Shown one piece after another: positions 41,830 through 53,517 of a DNA stretch of 64,000 nucleotides. The DNA comes from Cystobacter fuscus (GTDB lineage: Bacteria; Myxococcota; Myxococcia; Myxococcales; Myxococcaceae): positions 1,364,001 through 1,428,000 of the forward strand of contig NZ_CP022098.1 of assembly GCF_002305875.1 (NCBI RefSeq). The letters are read 5' to 3'. Position 1 is the stretch's first letter. Each line of letters opens with the position of its first letter. The notes under the pieces are model-generated. The model was not told the DNA's origin and did not search any database. It saw only the letters and a list, made by a program, of their open reading frames with translations. A program made the translations under genes and the position numbers.

Positions 41830-42417
41830 TCATGGATGGGCGTCTCGCGGCGCGCCTGTCATGTCCCGGCCGAGCAGCGTGCCCAGGTGCCCGAAGAACA
41901 CCTCCATGTCCTCTTGATCCATGCGGCCCGAGTAGCTGTAGACGACCCGGCCGTCCGCGCTCAGCAGCATCACCGAGGACGTCTTCTTCGGCAGCTTCCA
42001 GGGCGCATCGCCCAACACGCCCTTCAGGTCCACGAGGATGGGCACGCCCCACTTCTTCTCCTCGCCGCGCACGTGCGACAGCGCGATGTCCCGCGCGGGA
42101 AAGAAGTTGAAGGACTCCAGGTTGGCCACCGCCACCACCCACGCCGCCTGCAACAGCCCCATCTCCCGTCCCCGGTTGAACAGCGCGTCCTTCAACGAGG
42201 CGTTGAGTGTCGTCGAGTGACGATCCTCATAGAACAGAATGACGGGTTTTCCCCGCCACCGGGACAAGTCCACTTCCTTTCCATGTGAATCCCACAAGGT
42301 TGCATTCATCGGGACTGCCTCCAGTGGTGCGGCGAGGACGGAGCCGGTGGTCAGGACCGCGGCCATCAGGGCTCCCGCGAACCATCTCTTCAGGGGGGAC
42401 GGTGCTGGACAGGGCAT
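41830..42417 (-). CDS. YtfJ-like exported thioredoxin-fold protein
   Basis: A 195-residue protein with signal KRWFAGALMAAVLTTGSVLAAP. The thioredoxin-like fold is seen in GKPVILFYEDRHSTTLNASLK, then AARDIALSH-like helices and TSSVMLLSADGRVVYSYSGRM. There is no C-x-x-C, so it is not a disulphide enzyme; YtfJ-type proteins share this lack. ATG 42417 lies two bases from the repeat array of the carotenoid promoter, and an in-frame ATG at 42471 would start inside it. Divergent expression with the carotenoid operon, perhaps under the same repressor, is therefore possible. Confidence 0.75.
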   Translation of the reverse strand: MPCPAPSPLKRWFAGALMAAVLTTGSVLAAPLEAVPMNATLWDSHGKEVDLSRWRGKPVILFYEDRHSTTLNASLKDALFNRGREMGLLQAAWVVAVANLESFNFFPARDIALSHVRGEEKKWGVPILVDLKGVLGDAPWKLPKKTSSVMLLSADGRVVYSYSGRMDQEDMEVFFGHLGTLLGRDMTGAPRDAHP

Positions 42418-42418
42418 G

Positions 42419-42470
42419 TACAAACCTTGAACATAGCCTTGACAAACCTTGAACGCAAAGGTTACCTGCA
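42419..42470 (+). promoter_or_regulatory. Carotenoid operon promoter with 11-bp-phased repeats (CarH-type operator)
   Basis: Four 11-base units follow each other: tACAAACCTTG (42419), aACATAGCCTT (42430), gACAAACCTTG (42441) and aACGCAAAGGT (42452). Units 1 and 3 share 13 identical bases (ACAAACCTTGAAC), spaced 22 bases apart. ACA recurs every 11 bases in the first three units. CarH of Thermus is known to bind 11-bp direct repeats as an AdoCbl tetramer. TTGACA (42439-42444) overlaps unit 3 and fits a -35 box. At 17 bases spacing the -10 position reads TTACCT, a poor match. The crtE-like ATG is 63 bases after TTGACA. Repression in the dark by the regulator at 51168 is the natural reading. Confidence 0.7.
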
Positions 42471-42506
42471 CATCCGAAGGTAGCCACGCGTCTGGAGGAG
42501 TGCCGT

Positions 42507-43577
42507 ATGGGGCCCACGCCGTTCATCGCCGCTGCGCCCAGGTTGGCTCCCTCCGTGGAGCGGACGTGGTTGGCGTTGGTGCGGGCCCAGGTGGAGGGCG
42601 TCCTGGACGAGCTGTTGGTGCTTCCGGACGAGGCACGGTTGGACGAAGGGTGGGCAAGGGCTCTTGGCCAGACGAGGGCGCAGCTGTCGCGCTCTCCCCA
42701 GCAGATGCGCCCGGCGCTGCTGCTGGCGGGCTACTGCCTCGCACGAGGCTCCACGGTGGTGCCCGCGGGCCTGTGGCGCTTCGTCGCGGGCCTCGAATTG
42801 CTGCATGCCTCGCGGGCCCTTCACTCCGATGTCCTGGCGTTCTCGCGGCCGCGTCCGGAGGGAGCGCCGCTGCACGCGCGGCTCGCGCCGGGACCCGCGG
42901 GGGGACACCTGGCGGTGGTCGTGGGTGATCACCTCTTCGCCCGCGCGCTGGAAGTGATGATGGAGGCGGACGTGCCGGGCGCCGTGCAGGCGAGCCAGTA
43001 CTGTCTGCGGATGGATCGCTCCACGGTGCCGGGCCTCTTCCGCCGGGAGCAGGGCGGGTTGCTGGCGGAGCAGGGTGGCGTGCGTCAGGCATTGAGGCTC
43101 GCCCGCTTGCGGATGGTGCGCGAGGGGCTCGCCACCTCCCTGGTGTGTGGCGCGATGCTGGCGGGCGCGGAGGAGTCACTGCGGCTGCGCCTGGCGGGCG
43201 TGGGGTGCGGCCTGGGGCTCGCCACCCTGCTACGTCAGGAGTCCGCGAGCCTGCTCGAGGTGCCTTGGGGCGGCCCTGGCGACTTCGTGCTGGGGCGATG
43301 CACCTTCCCGTTGATGGCCGCCTGGTCGCGCTCGCGACCCGAGGCGCGCGCGGAACTCGAGGCCCTGTGGAACCTGCCCCGCGAGCAGAAGGACGCCGCC
43401 GTGTTGTCCCGGGTGCGCGTCCTGGTGGACGAGGCCGGGGGCCGCTCGGCCACCGAGCGGATCGCCGCGCGGGCGGCGCACGGCGCGGTGCGGGCGCTCT
43501 CCACCTTGCCCAATCCCCAGGGCCTGCGCGACCTGATGCGAGCGCTCGTGGGTCCGTCGTCCCAGCCGATGGTTTGA
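42507..43577 (+). CDS. crtE: CrtE-like polyprenyl synthase homologue lacking the Asp-rich motifs
   Basis: A 356-residue member of the all-alpha prenyl synthase fold in the crtE position of the operon. QQMRPALLLAGYCLARG matches the basic substrate-binding region, and VVVGDHLFARALEVM matches the helix after the first Asp motif. However, the first D-D-x-x-D is replaced by HASRALHSDVLAFS, and the second by LATLLRQESASLL. The conserved Lys of the KTA region is also absent. Catalysis as known needs these Asp for Mg2+. The protein may be an inactive partner that helps another GGPP synthase, or have another role. Start ATG 42507 follows GGAGGAG. First gene of the operon. Confidence 0.75.
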   Translation: MGPTPFIAAAPRLAPSVERTWLALVRAQVEGVLDELLVLPDEARLDEGWARALGQTRAQLSRSPQQMRPALLLAGYCLARGSTVVPAGLWRFVAGLELLHASRALHSDVLAFSRPRPEGAPLHARLAPGPAGGHLAVVVGDHLFARALEVMMEADVPGAVQASQYCLRMDRSTVPGLFRREQGGLLAEQGGVRQALRLARLRMVREGLATSLVCGAMLAGAEESLRLRLAGVGCGLGLATLLRQESASLLEVPWGGPGDFVLGRCTFPLMAAWSRSRPEARAELEALWNLPREQKDAAVLSRVRVLVDEAGGRSATERIAARAAHGAVRALSTLPNPQGLRDLMRALVGPSSQPMV

Positions 43578-43590
43578 GAGGAGATGCACC

Positions 43591-45135
43591 GTGGAGCGTG
43601 GCAAGCGACAAGCGGTGGTGGTGGGCGCGGGCGTGGGTGGGCTCGCGGCGGCGGCGCGGCTGGCCCACGCGGGCTTCAGCGTGCACCTGTTCGAGAAGAC
43701 GGACGGCCCCGGCGGGCGCTGCAATCAGCTCAAGGTGGACGGGTTCACCTGGGACCTGGGCCCCACCATCGTGCTCATGCCCGAGGTGTTCGAGGAGACA
43801 TTCACCGCGCTCGGCCGGCGCATGGAGGACTACCTCACGCTGCACCGGTGCGATCCCAACTACCGCATCCACTACCGTGACGGCTCGGCCATCACCTTCA
43901 CCTCCGAGCTGTGTGCCATGGGGCGCGAGCTGGAGCGGGTGGAGCCCGGCAGCTACCAGCGCTACCTGTCCTTCCTCGCCCTCGGCCGCACCCAGTACCG
44001 CACGGGGTTGGATCACCTCGTGGGCCGCAACTACGAGGGCCTGTCCGACTACTTCGTGCCCTCGGTGTTCAAGCGCATCCTCGAGGTGCGTGCCCACCGG
44101 CGCATGTACTCGGAGGTCGGCCGCTTCTTCAAGGACGAGCGGCTGCGCGCGGGGATGACCTTCCAGTCCATGTACCTGGGCGTGTCTCCCTATGCCGCGC
44201 CGGGCGTGTTCGCGCTGCTGCCCTTCACCGAGCTGGGCGTGGGCGTCTGGTTTCCCCAGGGGGGCCTGTATGCCATTCCCCTGGCGCTGGAGAAGCTGGC
44301 GCGCGAGGAGGGCGTGCACCTGCACTACGGCACGCCCGTGCGACGCATCCTCACCGAGGGCAAGCGCACCACGGGCGTGGAGCTGGAGGGCGGCGAGGTG
44401 GTACGGGCCGACGTCGTGGTGTGTAACGCGGATCTGCCCTACGCGTACGAGAAGCTGCTCGACAAGAACGTCACGCGGCTCAAGCGCGCGGACAAGCTCC
44501 GCTACACCTCCAGCGGCTACATGCTCTACCTGGGCATGCGCCGACGCTACGACGAATTCCTCCACCACAACGTCTACTTCGGCAACGACTACAAGGGCTC
44601 GTTCGACTCCATCTTCGAGCACTTCCGCGTCCCCGAGGATCCGAGCTTCTACGTGAATGCCCCCGCCCACACGGATCCGAGCCTCGCGCCACCGGGCAAG
44701 GACGCGCTCTACATCCTGGTGCCCGTGCCCCATCAGCACGAGGGACTGGATTGGAAGACGGAGGGCCCGCGCGTGCGCGCCAAGGTGTTCCAACGACTGG
44801 CGGAGCTGGGCCACACGGAGCTGGAGCGCGACATCGAGGTGGAGCGCGTGCTCACCCCGGACGACTGGGCGTCCACGTTCAACCTGGCGCGGGGCAGCGC
44901 CTTCGGGCTCGCGCAGAACTTCTTCCAGATTGGCCCCTTCCGTCCGTCCAATCAGGATCCGCGTGTGAAGAACCTCTTCTTCGTGGGAGCCTCCACGCAG
45001 CCTGGAACGGGACTGCCCACGGTGCTCATCTCCGCGCGTCTGGCGGTGGAGCGCATCCTGACGTGGGCGGGAGTGGACAACGTGGTGCGCGCGCCTGGGG
45101 GGACCGGGCCCGGTTCAATGGAGGAAGCGGCATGA
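43591..45135 (+). CDS. crtI: Phytoene desaturase (CrtI family)
   Basis: A 514-residue FAD enzyme starting at GTG 43591 after GAGAGGAG. The N-terminal nucleotide site is AVVVGAGVGGLAAAARLA with EKTDGPGGRCNQ after it. FAD contacts at the C-terminus are NLFFVGASTQPGTGLPTVL. The full CrtI middle region is present (DLGPTIVLMPEVF, FPQGGLYAIPLALEKLA). It introduces double bonds into phytoene, probably toward lycopene, alone or together with the second desaturase at 46192; in Myxococcus two such proteins act together. It overlaps crtB by ATGA. Confidence 0.93.
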   Translation: MERGKRQAVVVGAGVGGLAAAARLAHAGFSVHLFEKTDGPGGRCNQLKVDGFTWDLGPTIVLMPEVFEETFTALGRRMEDYLTLHRCDPNYRIHYRDGSAITFTSELCAMGRELERVEPGSYQRYLSFLALGRTQYRTGLDHLVGRNYEGLSDYFVPSVFKRILEVRAHRRMYSEVGRFFKDERLRAGMTFQSMYLGVSPYAAPGVFALLPFTELGVGVWFPQGGLYAIPLALEKLAREEGVHLHYGTPVRRILTEGKRTTGVELEGGEVVRADVVVCNADLPYAYEKLLDKNVTRLKRADKLRYTSSGYMLYLGMRRRYDEFLHHNVYFGNDYKGSFDSIFEHFRVPEDPSFYVNAPAHTDPSLAPPGKDALYILVPVPHQHEGLDWKTEGPRVRAKVFQRLAELGHTELERDIEVERVLTPDDWASTFNLARGSAFGLAQNFFQIGPFRPSNQDPRVKNLFFVGASTQPGTGLPTVLISARLAVERILTWAGVDNVVRAPGGTGPGSMEEAA

Positions 45136-46166
45136 AGTCGCGGGACGAGAACCTGGTTGCGAAGGGTTACCGGATGGCGGAGCAGGTGACCCGGCACCAT
45201 GCCAAGAGTTTCTTCTTCGCTTCGTTCATGTTGTTCGGCATGAGGCGCAAGGCGGCCTTCGCCCTCTACGCCTTCTGCCGACGGCTGGACGACATGGTGG
45301 ACGTGGCGGACGGGGCGGACAAGGGCGCGGTGCCCACGGACCTGGCCGAGCGGCTGACCCGCGCGCGGCGCGCCGTGGCCGAGCTCTTCCTGGACACGCC
45401 CGAACTGGCGGACCCCCGCCTGCCTCCGCCCGCCACGCGCGCCAGCGGGGGCGAGGGGCCGTGGCATCCCGCGGAGCTGGCCGCGCTCGTGGACTGCATC
45501 CAGCGCTTCCGCGTGCCCGAGTACCCCATGCAGGAGCTCATCTCCGGCATGGAGATGGACCTGACGATCCGCCGCTACGACACCTGGTCGCAGTTGGATC
45601 TGTACTGCTACCGGGTGGCCGGCGTGGTGGGGCTGATGATGGCGGCGATGCTCGGGTGCTCCGAGGAGTGGGCGCTCGGGCCCGCGGCGGACCTGGGCCG
45701 GGGCATGCAGCTCACCAACATCCTCCGGGACGTGGGCGAGGACCTGGAGCGCGACCGCGTCTATCTGCCCCTGGAGGAGCTGGCGGCCTTCGGGCTGTCG
45801 CTGGAGGACCTGCGCCGGGGCGTGGTGGATGACCGCTGGCGCGACTTCATGCGCTGGCAGATCTCCCGGGCGCGCGCCTACTACGAGCGGGCCGCGGCGG
45901 GCATCCCCGCGCTGTCGGGCTTCGGCTCGCAGCGCATGGTGATGCTCATGGGCTCCATCTACGGAGACATCCTGCGCGTCATCGAGGAGCGCGACTTCGA
46001 CGTCTTCTCGGGCCGCTCGGCCGTTTCCAAGTCGCGCAAGTTCGCGCTGGCCACCCACGCGCTCGTGCGGCCCGCGACGGTGCCCCTCATGCACGTGCGC
46101 GCGCCGGGAGGATCGGTGCCGCTGCTGCCGCCCGCGCGCGCCGTCACGACGGGATCCATGCCATGA
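45132..46166 (+). CDS. crtB: Phytoene synthase
   Basis: A 344-residue trans-isoprenyl diphosphate synthase of the squalene/phytoene type. It joins two GGPP molecules head to head. Both Mg2+ motifs are intact: DDMVD at residues 53-57 and D-V-G-E-D at 200-204 within LTNILRDVGEDLERDR. YCYRVAGVVGLMM and YLPLEEL-type motifs are also present. The C-terminal 40 residues are a Pro/Ala extension. Translationally coupled to crtI. Confidence 0.95.
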   Translation: MKSRDENLVAKGYRMAEQVTRHHAKSFFFASFMLFGMRRKAAFALYAFCRRLDDMVDVADGADKGAVPTDLAERLTRARRAVAELFLDTPELADPRLPPPATRASGGEGPWHPAELAALVDCIQRFRVPEYPMQELISGMEMDLTIRRYDTWSQLDLYCYRVAGVVGLMMAAMLGCSEEWALGPAADLGRGMQLTNILRDVGEDLERDRVYLPLEELAAFGLSLEDLRRGVVDDRWRDFMRWQISRARAYYERAAAGIPALSGFGSQRMVMLMGSIYGDILRVIEERDFDVFSGRSAVSKSRKFALATHALVRPATVPLMHVRAPGGSVPLLPPARAVTTGSMP

Positions 46167-46191: not shown

Positions 46192-47649
46192 ATGAAGTCC
46201 ATGCGTGTCGCGGTGGTGGGTGGTGGAATCGGAGGACTGACGGCCGCCGGACTGCTGGCCAGGGAGGGTCATGACGTCACCCTCTTCGAGGGGGGTCCCC
46301 ACCTCGGTGGCAAGGCGCAGTCCGTGCAGGTGGGCGGACTGCGGCTGGACACCGGGCCCACGCTGCTCACGCTCCCGGACGTCGTGCGCGGTCTGTTCGA
46401 TTCGCTGGGCGCGGCGGACCTGCTGCCGCCCTTCCTCGAGCTGGAGGCGCAGTGCACCTACCACTTCGCGGACGGGTGCGGCTTCGTGGCCTCCAAGGAC
46501 CTCGAGCGCACCGCGCACAGCGCCGCGCAACTGCGTCCGAGCGAGGGGAAAGGCGTGCACGGCTTCTACGCGGAGGCCGAGCACATCTGGCGCGCCGCGG
46601 GCGAGCCCTACCTGGAGGCCCCCTTCGAGGGCATGGCGGGCTTCATGTCCCGGGTGCTGCGTCGGGGCATGGTGGCCGTGGCCCGGGGCATGAAGCTGTC
46701 CACCCTGGACGACCTGGCGCGGGCGCATTTCAAGACGGAGTACATGTGGCAATTCGTGGGTCGCTTCGCCACGTACGCGGGGGCTTCGCCCTATGCGGCG
46801 AGCGCGGCCTATGCCCTGGTGCCCCACATCGAGCGCGCGTACGGCGTGCACCACGTGCGAGGTGGAATTGGCGCGCTGGTGGACGCGCTCGGGGCGGCGG
46901 TGGCTCGCCTGGGCGTGAAGGTGCACCTGAACACGCGCGTGCACTACCAGCGCGAGGGCCACGGCTACCGGGTGGGTCCGTCCGGCGGCGAGGAGCGTTT
47001 CGACTCGGTGGTGGTGAACGCGGACCCGCTGGACAAGCTGGGACGCGGGAGCGAGCCGCTGTCGCTGTCGGGCCATGTGCTGCTGCTGGAGGTGGATGGC
47101 CGTCCCGCCCTGCCGCACCACGCCGTGCTCTTCAGCCGGGACTACCGGCGCGAGTTCGACGAGCTGTTCGCGGGCCAGCTCGCGGCGGATCCCACCGTGT
47201 ACTTCTGCAACCCCTCGGCGACGGACGACACGGTGGCGCCGCCGGACAAGACGGGCCTGTTCGTCATGGTGAATGCCCCGGCGCTGCCGCGCGAGCCCGG
47301 TGCCGCCGAGCGCGCCGCGGCGGAGTGGGAGCTGCACGGCGAGCGGGTGAAGGCGCAGATGTTCGACAAGCTGCTCACCCACTACCCGGAGCTGAAGGGG
47401 CGCATGCGCGTGGTGGCCCAGCGCACGCCGGTGGACCTGGCCGCGTTGGGCGCGCCCGGAGGTTCCATCTACGGCTTCCTACCGCACGGCCGCTTCGGTC
47501 CCTTCCGCCGTCCGCGCATCCGGGGAGGCACTCCTGGACTCTTCTTCGCGGGAGGAGGCACGCATCCGGGCGGAGGGGTTCCCCTGGTGATGCTCTCGGG
47601 CCAGTTCGCGGCCCGCATGGCGTCCGCGCATCTGAGGAGCGGCGAATGA
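46192..47649 (+). CDS. Second CrtI/CrtD-type carotenoid desaturase
   Basis: A 485-residue FAD enzyme of the CrtI superfamily: VAVVGGGIGGLTAAGLLARE at the N-terminus, DTGPTLLTLPDVV, and the C-terminal FAD loop LFFAGGGTHPGGGVPLVMLSG. It is shorter and more divergent than the first desaturase. In Myxococcus the corresponding gene cooperates in phytoene desaturation. Some features (early VGGLRLDTGPT, TYAGASPYAA) recall CrtD-type 3,4-desaturases acting on hydroxylated carotenoids. I cannot decide between these. Its ATG lies 25 bases after crtB, and its stop overlaps crtC by ATGA. Confidence 0.88.
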   Translation: MKSMRVAVVGGGIGGLTAAGLLAREGHDVTLFEGGPHLGGKAQSVQVGGLRLDTGPTLLTLPDVVRGLFDSLGAADLLPPFLELEAQCTYHFADGCGFVASKDLERTAHSAAQLRPSEGKGVHGFYAEAEHIWRAAGEPYLEAPFEGMAGFMSRVLRRGMVAVARGMKLSTLDDLARAHFKTEYMWQFVGRFATYAGASPYAASAAYALVPHIERAYGVHHVRGGIGALVDALGAAVARLGVKVHLNTRVHYQREGHGYRVGPSGGEERFDSVVVNADPLDKLGRGSEPLSLSGHVLLLEVDGRPALPHHAVLFSRDYRREFDELFAGQLAADPTVYFCNPSATDDTVAPPDKTGLFVMVNAPALPREPGAAERAAAEWELHGERVKAQMFDKLLTHYPELKGRMRVVAQRTPVDLAALGAPGGSIYGFLPHGRFGPFRRPRIRGGTPGLFFAGGGTHPGGGVPLVMLSGQFAARMASAHLRSGE

Positions 47650-48617
47650 GGCGCCTGGATTTGCTGTCGCCGCGCGCCCTCCGGGGCGAGTCGTGGCTGG
47701 ACGCGCTGCCGGCGCTGCCGGATACGGCCGGGGCCTATCGCTGGTTCTACGCCGACGTGACGGCGGGCGAGTACAGCGCCGTCTTCATCTTCATGCTCGG
47801 CTCGCTCTTCTCGCCGCGCTACTCGGTGGGGGCGCCGCGGGGCGCGTTGCCGCTGCAACACAGCGCGGTGAACTTCGCGCTCTACCACCGTGGCCGAGGG
47901 GTGCGCTGGGTGCTCAGCGAGTATCCCCAGGCGTTGGTGTGCCAGGGAGGCCGGGAGCTGCTCATCGGCCGCTCGCGCCTGGAGTACACGCGGGATGGCC
48001 GGGTGTGCCTGGAGGTGGACGAGCAGTGCGCGCCTTTTGGCGGAGCGGTGCACGCGCGGCTGGAGCTCCAGCCCGAGTCCTTCTCGACCGAGGAGGTGCA
48101 ACTGGTGCCGGGCGTGCCGCACTACTGGCGGGCGCTGGCACCTCGGGCGAGGGCGTGGTTGTCGGTGGACTCCGAGGACGTGCGCGCCGAGGGCCACGGC
48201 TATCACGACACCAACCATGGCGCGGAACTGCTGGGCGCGCGGCTGCCGGGCTGGTACTGGGCACGGCTGCACGGGCCGGAGGAGACGGTGGTGGAGTACC
48301 ACCTGCCGGGCGGAGTGGCTCCCCTGCGCGTGACGGCGAGTGCCCGGGGCACGTCGTGTGAGCGGTGGCCGGTGCGCGCGGAGCCGCTGGGCACGCGCAT
48401 GACGGGATGGGGCCTGCGCGTGCCGGAGCGGCTGGTGTCGAGCCCCGGGGGGGCGACCGAGCCCCGGTTGCTGGAGTCCTCTCCCTTCTATGCCCGGCTG
48501 GAGGCACGCCAGGGTGGACTGGACGTGATGGGGGAGGTGGCGGACTTCCGGCGCTTCCACTCGCCCTTCATCCGCTGGATGGCGCACTTCCGCACGCGCG
48601 TGGAGCGCCAGACATGA
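47646..48617 (+). CDS. crtC: Carotenoid 1,2-hydratase (hydroxyneurosporene synthase)
   Basis: A 323-residue protein in the CrtC family: AYRWFYADVTAGEYSAVFIF near the start, GALPLQHSAVNFALYHRG, and HGYHDTNHGAELLGARLPGW with the conserved Tyr-His-Asp-x-Asn-x-Gly pattern. It ends FIRWMAHFRTRVERQ. It adds water to the 1,2 double bond of an acyclic carotenoid end, giving the hydroxyl that the next enzymes glycosylate and acylate. Overlaps both neighbours by four bases. Confidence 0.92.
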   Translation: MRRLDLLSPRALRGESWLDALPALPDTAGAYRWFYADVTAGEYSAVFIFMLGSLFSPRYSVGAPRGALPLQHSAVNFALYHRGRGVRWVLSEYPQALVCQGGRELLIGRSRLEYTRDGRVCLEVDEQCAPFGGAVHARLELQPESFSTEEVQLVPGVPHYWRALAPRARAWLSVDSEDVRAEGHGYHDTNHGAELLGARLPGWYWARLHGPEETVVEYHLPGGVAPLRVTASARGTSCERWPVRAEPLGTRMTGWGLRVPERLVSSPGGATEPRLLESSPFYARLEARQGGLDVMGEVADFRRFHSPFIRWMAHFRTRVERQT

Positions 48618-49750
48618 CTACGTGGGCGGCCCTGGCAATGGCCTGGGGAGGACTGGCCGGGGGCTTCAGCGCGGTGGCGCTGGCGCGCCTCATGCGGCGG
48701 CGTCCGGCGGCTGCCTCCACGCGGGTGCCGGTGCTGTTGCTGCGTCCGGTGGATGCGCCCACGCCCCGCGAGGTGGAGAACCTGGCCACGCCCATCGACT
48801 ACCCGGGTCCGTTGGAGCACGTGGTGCTCGCCCCCGAGCGGCCACCCCTGCCCGAGCACGTGCGGTGGGTGCCGAGCGATCCCTCGACGCCCAACCGCAA
48901 GGTGGGGCACCTGCTGCATGCGCTGAGGGTGCTGCCCCGGGAGGGCCGGGTGGTGCTGGTGGTGGACGCGGACGTGGTGGTGACGGGCGCGCTGGTGGCG
49001 GGCCTGGCGGCGCCGGTGGCGGCGGGCGCGGCGCTGAGCACGGCGGTGCCCACGCCGGTGGACGCGCGGGGACTGGCCGGGCGGGCCGTGGCCGCGCTGC
49101 TGCGCCGCACGCACCACAGCTTCCGGGCGCTGCACGTGATGAGCGCCGGGGCCGCGGCGGTGTGTGGCAAGGCGCTCGGGTTGAGTGGCCGGGCGGTGGA
49201 GGAACTGCCGGAGCTGGCGGACCACATCGGCGAGGACCTGGAGTTGTCCAAGCGGCTGCACGCGCGCGGCCTCGGCGTGGCGTTGTGCGAGGTGCCGGCG
49301 GTGGTGCCCCTGGCCGCGGGAGACTGGGACGCGGCCCTGGCCCGCTTCACGCGCTGGATGCAGGTGTTGCGCAGCCACCGGCCCGGGCTCTACCCGACGG
49401 TGCCCCTGCTGTTCACGCCCACGTGGCCGCTGCTGGTGCTCGGCATGGCGGCGGGCTCGTCGGGCCTGTGGGGGTGCGTGGCGGCGCTGGTGGCCGTGCG
49501 CACCCTGTTGTCCTGGCGGCTCGCGCGGCTCAGCGCTCCCGGAGCCCACCCGGGAGCAGGGAGTTCCGAGGGCGGAGCGTACAGCTTCGCGCTGGATTGG
49601 TTGTTGGGCGAGGCCCTGTTGCTCGCCGCCTTCGTCCGCTCCCTCGCGCACCCCCCGCGGGTGACCTGGCGGGGGCGCGTCTATGCGTTGCACCCAGGAG
49701 GCCGGATGTCACCCGGATGGACGGAATTGAAGCAGGAGGGCGGGGTATGA
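48614..49750 (+). CDS. GT2-type membrane glycosyltransferase (ceramide glucosyltransferase-like)
   Basis: A 378-residue glycosyltransferase with an N-terminal helix and C-terminal membrane segments (WPLLVLGMAAGSSGLWGCVAA). Catalytic residues fit the GT21-like group: VLVVDADVVVTG, HIGEDLELSKRL and the R-x-x-R-W in ARFTRWMQVLR. Position directly after crtC in the operon, as in Myxococcus, suggests that it transfers a sugar to the 1'-hydroxyl of the carotenoid. The activity is inferred from context. Confidence 0.85.
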   Translation: MTTWAALAMAWGGLAGGFSAVALARLMRRRPAAASTRVPVLLLRPVDAPTPREVENLATPIDYPGPLEHVVLAPERPPLPEHVRWVPSDPSTPNRKVGHLLHALRVLPREGRVVLVVDADVVVTGALVAGLAAPVAAGAALSTAVPTPVDARGLAGRAVAALLRRTHHSFRALHVMSAGAAAVCGKALGLSGRAVEELPELADHIGEDLELSKRLHARGLGVALCEVPAVVPLAAGDWDAALARFTRWMQVLRSHRPGLYPTVPLLFTPTWPLLVLGMAAGSSGLWGCVAALVAVRTLLSWRLARLSAPGAHPGAGSSEGGAYSFALDWLLGEALLLAAFVRSLAHPPRVTWRGRVYALHPGGRMSPGWTELKQEGGV

Positions 49751-50160
49751 CCTACGCACGTTTCCTGGGCCTGTTCGTCGTGCTGCCCATCGTCTTGCTG
49801 GCGGTGCGCTACCGGCGCGTGCTCACCGGGCGAGCCCTGCTGCCCCTGGTGCCCCTGTTGGCCATCGTCTACGTGGCCACGTGCCCCTGGGACAACCTGG
49901 CGGTGAAGTGGGGGCTGTGGCGCTTCAAGCCGGAGCTCATCTGGGGCATCGTCGTGGGCTACCTGCCCCTGGAGGAGTACCTCTTCTTCGGCTTGCAGAC
50001 GCTGCTGGTGGGGGTGTGGGTGCTCGCGCGGCTGCGTCGGGTGTCCCTGGCACCCGCCGCCCGGAAGTCCCCCGCGAGCCCCCCGGTGCCCGCGGGCCAG
50101 CACCGGCTGGACTCCAAGCTGGGCTCCAACAAGCTGGGCTCCAAGGAGGTGGTGTCATGA
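49747..50160 (+). CDS. crtYc: Lycopene cyclase subunit CrtYc
   Basis: A 137-residue protein with three membrane helices and the heterodimeric lycopene beta-cyclase motif GYLPLEEYLFFGLQTLLVG. The C-terminal tail is polar and contains a short repeat (SKLGSNKLGSKE). It works with CrtYd (next gene) to close one or both ends of lycopene. Overlaps both neighbours by ATGA. Confidence 0.92.
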   Translation: MTYARFLGLFVVLPIVLLAVRYRRVLTGRALLPLVPLLAIVYVATCPWDNLAVKWGLWRFKPELIWGIVVGYLPLEEYLFFGLQTLLVGVWVLARLRRVSLAPAARKSPASPPVPAGQHRLDSKLGSNKLGSKEVVS

Positions 50161-50504
50161 TGGAGTCGCGCTGGGCGTACCTCATCCATCTCATGGCGTG
50201 GGCGGGCCCCTTCATCGCGCTGCAACTCGGGGTGCTGGTGTTCTACTTCCGCGAGCGCTCCTGGACGGTGCTGCGCGCGGCGCTCGTGCCGGCGGGCGTC
50301 ATGGGCGTCTACCTGTCGGTGGCGGATCACCTGGCCATCCGCGAGGGCATCTGGAGCTTCGGGGAGGGCAAGCACCTGGGCATCTACATCGGCGCGGTGC
50401 CGCTCGAGGAGCTGCTCTTCTTCCTGCTCACCAGCGTCATGGTGGCGCTGGGCCTGACCCTCTTCGCCGCCCTGCTGGCCCGGCGCGAGGCGCGCGTGCC
50501 GTGA
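50157..50504 (+). CDS. crtYd: Lycopene cyclase subunit CrtYd
   Basis: A 115-residue membrane protein with AVPLEELLFFLLTSVMVALG, the second half of the heterodimeric cyclase, and KHLGIYIGAVPLEE at the entry to that helix. Its start overlaps the CrtYc stop. Together the pair should give one beta-ionone ring, leaving the other end for hydration and glycosylation. Confidence 0.92.
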   Translation: MMESRWAYLIHLMAWAGPFIALQLGVLVFYFRERSWTVLRAALVPAGVMGVYLSVADHLAIREGIWSFGEGKHLGIYIGAVPLEELLFFLLTSVMVALGLTLFAALLARREARVP

Positions 50505-51175
50505 TACACGCGGCCAAGGGCGGGTTTCCGGGATGGATGGTCGACACCTATGTGGGCTGGAAGTTCCGCTCGTCCTTCCGGGGCTTGTGGGTGCGCGGAG
50601 CGCTGGAGGACAGCGTGGCCGGGCGCCTCGTCTATGCGAACCACTCCAACTGGTGGGATGGCTTCGTGCTGCATCAACTTGGCCGGGCGGCGGGTTGGGA
50701 CACATACTGCGTCATGGAGGAGAAGAACCTGGCGCGCTATCGCTTCCTGTCGCGCATCGGTGCCTTCAGCATCCGGCGGGGTGAGGCGGCCTCGTCCCTG
50801 GAGACACTGCGCTACGCGAGCTCGCTGCTCGCGCGGCCCCGGGCCGCGGTGTGTATCTTCCCGGAGGGTGAGCTGCGGCCCCATGGCGTGCGCTCGCTGA
50901 AGCTGGAGCGCGGGGTGGAGCTGCTCGCGCGGGTGAGCGGGGCGCGCTGCGTTCCGCTCTGCATCCGCTACGCCTTCTTCGAGCACGAGCGGCCGGACGT
51001 GCTGGTGGAGGTGGGCGGGTCGCACGCGGCGGCTCCCCTGGAGCGCTACCGCGAGGAGCTGGAGGCGGCGGCACGGCGGCTGGAGGCGGCGACGAGTCTG
51101 GAGGGCTTCACCCAGGTGGTGTCCGGTGCCCGGGGCGTGGCCGAACGTTGGGACGCGGTGCGCGGCCATGGCTGA
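50501..51175 (+). CDS. PlsC-like acyltransferase of the carotenoid operon
   Basis: A 224-residue acyltransferase starting at GTG 50501 in overlap with crtYd (GTGA). The catalytic H-x4-D is in NHSNWWDGF, followed by AFSIRRGEAASSLETLRYA and the substrate motif IFPEGELRPHG. In the equivalent Myxococcus position an acyltransferase esterifies the carotenoid glycoside with a fatty acid; the same role is inferred here. It overlaps the regulator gene by eight bases. Confidence 0.88.
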   Translation: MIHAAKGGFPGWMVDTYVGWKFRSSFRGLWVRGALEDSVAGRLVYANHSNWWDGFVLHQLGRAAGWDTYCVMEEKNLARYRFLSRIGAFSIRRGEAASSLETLRYASSLLARPRAAVCIFPEGELRPHGVRSLKLERGVELLARVSGARCVPLCIRYAFFEHERPDVLVEVGGSHAAAPLERYREELEAAARRLEAATSLEGFTQVVSGARGVAERWDAVRGHG

Positions 51176-52070
51176 GCGTACCTACCGCATTCACATCGCC
51201 GCCGAGTTCTCCGGCGTGAAGGTGGAGCTCATCCGCGCCTGGGAGCGGCGCTATGGGGTGCTCTCGCCCCAGCGCACCCCCTCGGGCTACCGGGTGTACA
51301 CGGACCGGGACGTGGCGCTGCTGCGGCGGCTCAAGCAGCTCACCGAGGAGGGCGTGTCCATCAGCGAGGCGGCGAAGATGCTGCCGCAGCTCCTGGCGGA
51401 GATCGACGCGGCGCAGCCCTCCCAGTCCCCGCCTCCGGAGCCGAGCGACGGCAGCGTGGCCTCCTGGCGCGAGGAGGTGCTGGAGGCCGTCAGGGTGTTG
51501 GATCAACGTCGGGTGTCGGAGACGCTGGACGAGGTGCTCGCGGCGCTCTCTCCCTTGAAGGCCTACGAGGACGTGCTGGTGCCCCTGCAGCAGGAGGTGG
51601 GAGAGCTGTGGCACCAGGGCGTCTTCACGGTGGGGCAGGAGCACCTGGTGACGCAGGAGATCCGCGCGCGGCTCATCAGCCTGCTGTACTCCGCGCCCAA
51701 CAAGGGACCGCGGCACGCGCTCCTGGCCTGCTTCCCGGAGGAGCAACACGAGCTGGGCCTCTTGGGCATGGCGCTGCGGCTGCGGCACTCCGGGATGACG
51801 GTGACGCTGCTGGGCCAGCGCACGCCCACCGACGAGGTGGTCCGCATAGCGCGGGCGCTCGAGGTGGACCTCGTGGGCCTGTCGGCGGTGGTGGACCCCG
51901 GTGCCCGGGAGTTCGAGGAGATCCTCACCCGGGTCACGCGCGGCCTCACTCCGGGCATGGACGTCTGGGTGGGAGGACGGGCGGCGCTCCAGCACCGGGC
52001 GCTGTGCGAGCGCCTGGGCGTGCGTGTCTTCGAGCACGCCGCCGACTGGCCACGGCTCCTGGGCGGATAG
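51168..52070 (+). CDS. carH: CarH-like B12-dependent photoreceptor/repressor (MerR family)
   Basis: A 300-residue regulator. The N-terminal MerR-type DNA-binding domain has GVKVELIRAWERRYGVLSP then RTPSGYRVYTDRDVALLRRL. A helical bundle follows with Trp148, nine residues, then Glu158-His159 (W-x9-EH), the light-sensing cap over the upper face of adenosylcobalamin. The cobalamin-binding domain has E-x-H-x-x-G at 192-197 with His194 as lower ligand, and GLLGQRTP-like loops. All residues needed for an AdoCbl photoreceptor are present. In Myxococcus two such genes (carA, carH) stand in tandem; here there is one. It should repress the operon promoter at 42419 in the dark and release it in light. 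It overlaps the acyltransferase gene, so it is made from the operon it controls. Confidence 0.9.
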   Translation: MAERTYRIHIAAEFSGVKVELIRAWERRYGVLSPQRTPSGYRVYTDRDVALLRRLKQLTEEGVSISEAAKMLPQLLAEIDAAQPSQSPPPEPSDGSVASWREEVLEAVRVLDQRRVSETLDEVLAALSPLKAYEDVLVPLQQEVGELWHQGVFTVGQEHLVTQEIRARLISLLYSAPNKGPRHALLACFPEEQHELGLLGMALRLRHSGMTVTLLGQRTPTDEVVRIARALEVDLVGLSAVVDPGAREFEEILTRVTRGLTPGMDVWVGGRAALQHRALCERLGVRVFEHAADWPRLLGG

Positions 52071-52114
52071 GGGAGCGCCGGGCGAGGGCGGCTCCCGGCG
52101 TGAGCGCGCTCCTC

Positions 52115-52120
52115 TATACT
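52115..52120 (+). promoter_or_regulatory. Possible -10 box before the second amidohydrolase gene
   Basis: TATACT lies 12 bases before the ATG at 52132, in the same CT-TATACT setting as at 113-118. A GC-rich hairpin with stem CGCCGGG/CCCGGCG (about 52076-52099) precedes it and may end the carotenoid transcript. No -35 box is clear. Confidence 0.3.
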
Positions 52121-52131
52121 CCGCGCCGGCC

Positions 52132-53517
52132 ATGCCACTCGTGAAAAGACCTGTCCTGAAGACCCCGAGCGCCGGGATGCTCCTGGGTGTCTGCTTCCTG
52201 TTCCTCTGCCTCGCGGTGCCCCTGCCGGGGTGCGTGCACGACTCCGGGTCCGGGCCCGCCAGGTCGGACGAGGCGGTGGCCTTCATCGGGGTGAATGTCG
52301 TCCCCATGGATTCCGAGCGCGTGCTGCCGGATCAGACGGTCATCGTCCGCGATGGGCTCATCTCGGCGATGGGCCCCTCCACGGCCATCACCGTGCCGGC
52401 GGGCGCCCGGCGCATCGAGGCGAAGGACCGCTATCTGATGCCCGGCCTGTCGGACTTCCACATCCACCTGCACTCGGACGAGCAGCTCCTGTCGTACCTG
52501 GCCCATGGCGTCACCACCGTCTTCGAGCTGAACGGCACCCCGCGCCACCTGAAGCTGCGCGAGCAGATCGCCAGGCGTCAGGTGCTCGGCCCCCGGCTCT
52601 ACACGAGCAGTCCGCTCATGGATGGAGGCCCCGAGGGGGGCAGCGTGGTGTCGGTGAACTCGCCCGAGCAGGCGCGCCAGGCGGTGGTGCGCCAGAAGCG
52701 CGAGGGCTATGACGCCATCAAGGTCTACGACAACGTCCCGCCGGGGGTGTACGAGCAGTTGGTGGCCACGGCGCGTGAGCAGAAGCTGCCGGTGATGGGG
52801 CATGTGCCGCGCAGGGTGGGCGTGGACGCGGTGCTGCGCGCGCGCCAGGCGTTCATCTCCCACGGCATCGAGTACTTCCTCGCCGGCTCGCGCGACGAGT
52901 CACGCATCCCTGGCTTCGCGCTCGGCACGAAGGCGGCGGGGACGACGGTGGTGCCGGACCTGTCGCACGTGCACACGTCCTTGAAGATGATGGAGGACCT
53001 GGAGGGCGTCTTCTCGGATCCCGAGGCGCGCTACCTGTCCCCGAAGGTGATGAGCGACTGGCGCTACTCCAACCCGACGCGCCGGGTGGACGTGCGGCAG
53101 TTCTCCGAGCGGCAGCGGGCGGCCTACCCCTTCGTGCAGCACCTCACCCTGTCGCTGCAGAAGGCCGGCGTGCGGCTGGTGCTGGGGACGAACGCGTCGG
53201 ACGCGGGGCTCTTTCCCGGCAAGACGGTGCACCTGGAGCTGGCGGAGCTGGTGCGGGCGGGCCTGTCGCCCTACGAGGCCCTGGTGACGAGCACGCGCAA
53301 CCCCGCGGCCTTCATCGAGGAGCACGTGGACCCGGCGGCGCGCTTCGGCACGGTGGCGGTGGGCCAGCACGCGGATCTGCTGCTCCTGCCGGGCAATCCC
53401 CTGGAGGATGTCGGGCAGGCGGGGCAGGCGCTCGGGGTGATGGTGCGTGGCCAGTGGCTGACGCGCGAGCACCTGCAGCGCCTGCGCGACAAGGTGGCCG
53501 AGTCCTTCAACCGGTGA
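52132..53517 (+). CDS. Lipoprotein amidohydrolase (second copy of the superfamily)
   Basis: A 461-residue metal-dependent hydrolase with a lipoprotein-like signal ending LPLPGC. Metal residues: LSDFHIHLHSD (H-x-H), AIKVYDN (candidate carbamylated Lys), VMGHVPRR, and DLSHVHTS. The final acidic position reads LGTNASDAG rather than the usual GTD, so the catalytic Asp is displaced or supplied by the nearby Asp. It follows the regulator by 61 bases on the same strand, past a GC-rich hairpin. In Myxococcus I know no such gene in the pathway, so a link with carotenoids is doubtful. Confidence 0.85.
   Translation: MPLVKRPVLKTPSAGMLLGVCFLFLCLAVPLPGCVHDSGSGPARSDEAVAFIGVNVVPMDSERVLPDQTVIVRDGLISAMGPSTAITVPAGARRIEAKDRYLMPGLSDFHIHLHSDEQLLSYLAHGVTTVFELNGTPRHLKLREQIARRQVLGPRLYTSSPLMDGGPEGGSVVSVNSPEQARQAVVRQKREGYDAIKVYDNVPPGVYEQLVATAREQKLPVMGHVPRRVGVDAVLRARQAFISHGIEYFLAGSRDESRIPGFALGTKAAGTTVVPDLSHVHTSLKMMEDLEGVFSDPEARYLSPKVMSDWRYSNPTRRVDVRQFSERQRAAYPFVQHLTLSLQKAGVRLVLGTNASDAGLFPGKTVHLELAELVRAGLSPYEALVTSTRNPAAFIEEHVDPAARFGTVAVGQHADLLLLPGNPLEDVGQAGQALGVMVRGQWLTREHLQRLRDKVAESFNR

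Follow-up and report, generated by a model that had tools for sequence, protein, structure and literature searches.

The window, as we call the whole 64-kb stretch of DNA analyzed here, carries a row of carotenoid genes in a Cystobacter-type myxobacterium, and a set of short direct repeats lies immediately before the first of them. This raises three questions: (i) which regulator reads the repeats, (ii) in what oligomeric form it binds, and (iii) whether the site serves the carotenoid genes only. The kind of operator and its mechanism are already published for close relatives within Cystobacter (PMC9304148). What is new here amounts to small additions, namely that DR1 is complete in this strain and that the operator is shared by a conserved divergent gene and promoter-like element.

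Direct repeats at the crtE promoter

The array occupies positions 42402-42456 and consists of five 11-bp repeats of the form nnnnTnnACAn, the CarH motif, four of them full and one degenerate (Table 1). Much of it had been recognized in an earlier sequence-only reading: ACA recurs at 42420, 42431, and 42442, with ACG at 42453; positions 42420-42432 are identical to 42442-42454 over 13 bases (ACAAACCTTGAAC); and TTGACA is embedded in the repeats. That reading described four 11-bp-phased repeats. The phasing stands but the number does not, since five units are found once DR1 is included; the left edge then drawn, at 42419, overlooks an in-phase ACA at 42409 and excludes DR1 and part of DR2. The five-unit TnnACA score of the array, 19 of 20 motif positions, is the highest on either strand of the window, where the next-best five-unit score without overlap with the array is 14.

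Across the genome (12,349,744 bases), three exact in-phase TnnACA units occur at the array only, as two overlapping forward matches; there is no match to this exact pattern on the reverse strand genome-wide, and the reversed control also gave none. With one mismatch allowed, a single place outside the locus was found (G000:C1:11270881) versus 13 matches of the reversed control. Because of this control we treated the place as noise and rejected it as a second operator; no carotenoid or light gene was seen among the open frames around it. The suggestion that the same array, sought elsewhere in the genome, could lead to further light-regulated genes was not borne out: exact and one-mismatch three-unit patterns give no convincing second array, and further targets with a three-unit array therefore find no support. 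The conserved divergent gene on the shared operator is a better candidate for a further target than other arrays.

A simple promoter scan gave no sigma-70 consensus match above threshold. The -10 element that we place downstream of the array agrees in position with the M. xanthus operator, which spans -70 to -19 (PMC8156234).

Table 1. Positions of the repeats, promoter elements, and genes in the window
Feature	Position	Strand	Sequence or basis
Divergent YtfJ/redoxin-like gene	41830-42417	-	195 aa; start codon in DR2; N-terminus resembles a signal peptide (by eye)
DR1	42402-42412	+	GTGCTGGACAG; full TnnACA; absent from the sequence-only reading
DR2	42413-42423	+	GGCATGTACAA; full TnnACA; includes the ATG of the divergent gene
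DR3	42424-42434	+	ACCTTGAACAT; full TnnACA
Putative divergent -10	42430-42435	-	TATGTT; 17-bp spacer; TA in 28/30 loci
DR4	42435-42445	+	AGCCTTGACAA; full TnnACA; contains the -35 element
-35 of Pcrt (predicted promoter)	42439-42444	+	TTGACA within DR4; crtE ATG 63 bases downstream
dr5	42446-42456	+	ACCTTGAACGC; degenerate unit
Putative divergent -35	42453-42458	-	TTGCGT; TTG in 27/30 loci
Likely -10 of Pcrt	42463-42468	+	TACCTG; 18-bp spacer
Predicted crtE ribosome-binding site	42494-42500	+	GGAGGAG
crtE-type polyprenyl (geranylgeranyl diphosphate) synthase	42507-43577	+	first operon gene; below curated cut-offs
crtI-type phytoene desaturase	43591-45135	+	TIGR02734, E 7.9e-149
crtB-type squalene/phytoene synthase	45132-46166	+	PF00494, E 2e-71
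Second CrtI/CrtD-family desaturase	46192-47649	+	family search
crtC-like gene	47646-48617	+	by synteny; no Pfam family match
Glycosyltransferase (orf6-like)	48614-49750	+	family search
Lycopene cyclase subunit, crtYc-like	49747-50160	+	PF18916, just below cut-off
Lycopene cyclase subunit, crtYd-like	50157-50504	+	PF18916
Acyltransferase (orf9-like)	50501-51175	+	family search
carH	51168-52070	+	MerR DNA-binding domain and two B12 domains

The carotenoid operon and its regulator

Ten genes running from crtE to carH follow the array. Given the family search results in Table 1, the names of the crtE and crtC-like genes rest on synteny with the operon described in PMC9304148. With gene starts picked from in-frame candidates, the nine junctions comprise six 4-base overlaps, one 8-base overlap (into carH), and gaps of 13 and 25 bases. 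The regulator gene had been proposed as the last gene of the same operon, and carH is indeed its apparent end: it closes the tightly packed row and is followed by a strong hairpin (-30.7 kcal/mol, 52066-52132) that lacks a T run and then by an amidohydrolase gene at 52132. An amidohydrolase is found in the flank after carH at 5 of 29 relatives' loci.

Several features identify the regulator. The motif RxWERRY is present as RAWERRY at residue 23, within the MerR winged-helix DNA-binding domain, and Wx9EH is intact (residue 148; W, then His), which is the criterion used to separate CarH from CarA (PMC9304148). The B12-binding motif D/ExHx2G/Px41SxT/Vx22-27GG is complete (residue 192), and the Thermus CarH structure 5c8d is among the best PDB matches of the protein. 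The CarH equivalog NF052513 is the top NCBIfam match, scoring 133 bits where the cut-off is 400 bits. The protein does not earn the NCBIfam label and is predicted to be a CarH from its motifs, following PMC9304148.

We found one full-length CarH/A match when the genome was searched with this CarH. No CarA match was identified in the genome, and no carA lies directly upstream of carH, where the overlapping acyltransferase gene is located. The second match of the CarH query, outside the window, covers residues 112-286 only and falls in a 493-codon open frame on the minus strand (L076, 1432-2895) that has no MerR match. The C-terminal part of this open frame resembles the CarH B12 domain, with Wx9EH (WQQGEIGIAQEH) and ExHxxP kept.

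At 25 of the 40 relatives' loci, a second gene of the CarH/A type lies no more than 2.5 kb from carH, where carA is expected. The 15 without a second copy are the three genus-mates, one locus of another genus (L048), and 11 more distant loci with carH identities of 47-52%. In L048 (G014, genus g5, which is not that of the window), crtE and the operator are present, as is carH (62% identity), with no second CarH/A-like gene beside carH. Absence of CarA does not single out Cystobacter, as no second copy is seen in L048 or at the more distant loci either. Among the Cystobacterineae covered in PMC9304148, CarH without CarA is described only for Cystobacter and Melittangium.

CarF is present, with one PF10520 match in the genome (E 2.1e-62). 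A search for carQRS via NrsF (PF06532) gave one match, beside an ECF sigma gene (L077, G000:C1:3246964-3250506). No CarS was recognized beside these ECF sigma and NrsF-type anti-sigma genes.

Conservation of the operator among relatives

Searching 96 family genomes for CarH gave matches in 94, from which 40 loci were picked by hand. Of these, 36 contain crtE, and with the window added, a TTGACA lies no more than 250 bases upstream of it in 31 of 37. One of them (L067), being in a different register, was removed, which left an aligned set of 30 loci including the window. Loci with crtE but no TTGACA (L063-L066, L071, and L073) were excluded, several of which still have DR-like units. L063-L066 and L071 belong to a more distant genus (g26), in which DR-like units stand before crtE without the TTGACA-centered register. 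A scan of the genome collection with CrtE gave a single match, a remote one.

Because the TTGACA of DR4 served to align the 30 loci, identity of the hexamer and a full DR4 (30/30) follow by construction. A full TnnACA is found in unit 3 at 29 of 30 loci, in unit 1 at 21, in unit 2 at 9, and in unit 5 at 3. Writing D for a full and d for a degenerate unit, the arrangements are DdDDd (15 loci), ddDDd (5), dDDDd (4), DDDDD (2), DDDDd (2, the window and L061), DdDDD (1), and DDdDd (1). PMC9304148 lists DR1-dr2-DR3-DR4-dr5, dr1-DR2-DR3-DR4-dr5, and dr1-dr2-DR3-DR4-dr5. All five units are full in L041 (G004) and L042 (G007), an arrangement that is not one of these three.

In 27 of 30 loci the dr5 triplet ends in G, and in 23 it is exactly ACG. 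Columns 34-41 after the DR4 start carry only 0.08-0.61 bit. DR1, full in the window, is degenerate (TGGACG) in its two closest genus-mates (G032 and G033). Identity of carH to that of the three genus-mates is 96, 95, and 80%.

How the switch would work, and what reads the array

Addressing the first question, we are highly confident that the array is the operator through which CarH acts on the carotenoid-operon promoter, Pcrt, in a host of the Cystobacter type that gave no CarA match. The proposal of a CarH-type direct-repeat operator over the -35 of this operon, rather than a palindromic MerR site, is well supported. In C. fuscus and C. ferrugineus, CarH binds in the dark in an AdoCbl-dependent manner and binding is lost in light (PMC9304148). 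At the C. fuscus Pcrt, this AdoCbl- and light-dependent binding protects part of dr1 as well as DR2-dr5 from DNase I, with four evenly spaced hydroxyl-radical tracts, and CarS also releases CarH (PMC9304148). By analogy, we infer that the CarH and operator of the window behave as in that published system. In the dark, AdoCbl-CarH on the array would cover the -35 TTGACA and exclude RNA polymerase. Green, blue, or UV light would cleave AdoCbl, upon which CarH would fall apart to monomers and leave the DNA, and the operon, carH itself included, would then be transcribed. The site is very probably the operator of a B12-based light sensor that keeps the carotenoid genes off in the dark.

The array closely resembles the Pcrt of C. 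fuscus and C. ferrugineus, where the site also lies before crtE with five 11-bp repeats, the -35 TTGACA in the fourth, and a degenerate fifth unit, and where carH is likewise in the operon and CarA is absent (PMC9304148). The difference lies in unit 1, degenerate (dr1) there and a full TnnACA in the window. The Myxococcus xanthus Pcrt (PB) is of similar size, about 55 bp, with an equal repeat register over the same -35, but has the arrangement DR1-dr2-DR3-DR4-dr5, is also read by CarA, and has been described with inverted repeats. The CarH operators of Thermus thermophilus and Bacillus megaterium likewise consist of tandem 11-bp nnnnTnnACAn units overlapping promoter elements, but have three or four repeats and are read by a tetramer.

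This last comparison bears on the second question. The sequence-only reading had assigned the repeats to the four DNA-binding heads of a CarH tetramer, and a preformed tetramer with one head per repeat, as in B. megaterium and Thermus (PMC9304148), would suit four full repeats plus one. We consider this unlikely in the window. Between the window and its two nearest genus-mates, CarH identity is 95-96%. Further, one of the two positions that we take to be the dimer-dimer glycines of Thermus CarH is aligned with Pro here. Replacement of this glycine is frequent in myxobacterial CarH (PMC9304148), so that the difference is weak evidence. The purified CarH proteins of C. fuscus and C. ferrugineus are dimers by size exclusion, and two AdoCbl-CarH dimers bind dr1-DR4 or DR2-dr5 in a stepwise and cooperative manner, such that four of the five repeats are filled (PMC9304148). 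Because Cystobacter CarH is a dimer, with two dimers on four of five repeats, the tetramer is probably wrong here. Given that unit 1 is degenerate in the published sites and full in the window, occupancy could be shifted.

Two readings that dispense with CarH as the main ligand fare worse than the tetramer. In the first, the site would serve mainly CarA-type, B12-independent control through inverted repeats, the initial proposal for M. xanthus, whose operator was originally described with such repeats (PMC9304148); in the window, AACCTT and AAGGTT happen to flank dr5. We hold this to be very improbable. The genome lacks a CarA match, the AACCTT/AAGGTT pair is missing by eye from most aligned rows, and M. 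xanthus CarA binds the C. fuscus Pcrt, which has no palindrome, from which the authors infer that direct repeats are read (PMC9304148). Lower still we place a chance or purely promoter-linked pattern without repressor binding. The -35 box alone does supply one unit, but none of 5,000 Markov-1 simulations based on the local 117 bases reached a score of 17, and the array is unique in the genome and conserved across the 30 loci. Moreover, the operator has been footprinted in a close relative (PMC9304148). CarH, probably bound as dimers, remains our preferred reading.

A divergent gene and a minus-strand promoter-like pair

Potentially addressing the third question, a gene for a YtfJ/redoxin-like protein diverges from the array and begins within it. 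A homologue of the protein was identified at 35 of the 37 loci including the window (missing in L066 and L073), and the open frame is present in all 29 relatives with an aligned array, with a length of 182-233 codons and a start 18-58 bases upstream of DR4. In 24 of these 29 the ATG stands 40-46 bases before DR4, the ATG in each relative being the one nearest -42, as chosen by script. A candidate ribosome-binding site (GGAG, GAGG, or AGGA) occurs within 16 bases before the ATG in 20 of 30 loci, mostly at the left edge of DR1, and none of these three sequences is found within that distance in the window and the three genus-mates. YtfJ_HI0045 matches were obtained for 15 of 16 members of the divergent family (E up to 1; best 1.7e-7). 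The protein of the window matches at E 0.0032, below the cut-off, and its PDB matches, to thioredoxin-family proteins, are weak (best E 0.018).

We scanned the 30 loci for TTGnnn-TA pairs on both strands over 80 positions with five spacers, reporting those in at least 15 loci. The scan yields two pairs: that of Pcrt (plus-strand TTG-18-TA, kept in 26 of 30 aligned loci) and one on the minus strand whose spacer is 17 bases long (26 of 30). The latter count is to be read with the knowledge that this pair had been noticed by eye before the scan, that the loci are related, and that TTG is frequent on the minus strand because of the repeats themselves. The hexamers of the second pair are TTGCGT in 20 of 30 loci and TATGTC or TATGTT in 26 of 30. 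It runs from DR3 to two bases past dr5 and takes in the dr5 triplet G (27/30) as well as the T and A where DR3 meets DR4 (29/30 each), bases that the CarH motif does not require. The pair is broken in L034 (G032), L040, L059, and L060.

From the sequence comparison, there is about an even chance that the CarH/CarA operator of the Cystobacterineae works as a light switch in both directions, with dark repression of both carotenoid synthesis and a putative exported redox protein. Dark repression may extend to the divergent gene through the same occupancy, which would block the putative divergent promoter. The Cystobacterineae region has been described as a single promoter region (PMC9304148). The main text of that paper contains neither "thioredoxin" nor "redoxin"; the gene may appear in its figures or supplements. 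Similarly, the main text of an M. macrosporus light/dark RNA-seq paper (PMC11832031) contains neither "thioredoxin" nor "crtE", and YtfJ is not named in the literature found on CarH, divergent genes, and myxobacteria. One CarH site for two divergent promoters, as proposed here, has also been proposed in Sorangium cellulosum (crtI-carH and crtE-crtD); there, both divergent genes belong to the carotenoid/carH set, whereas that of the window is YtfJ/redoxin-like.

Implications

The published B12-dependent light switch is confirmed here from raw sequence, with the size of the array and the probable stoichiometry of binding corrected relative to the sequence-only reading. If the operator is a two-way switch, the conserved G of dr5 would be part of the divergent -35 element and not the sign of a poor repressor site. 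A true divergent promoter would explain why the fifth repeat stays degenerate, and would bring a likely exported thioredoxin-fold protein into the light response of the whole bacterial group.
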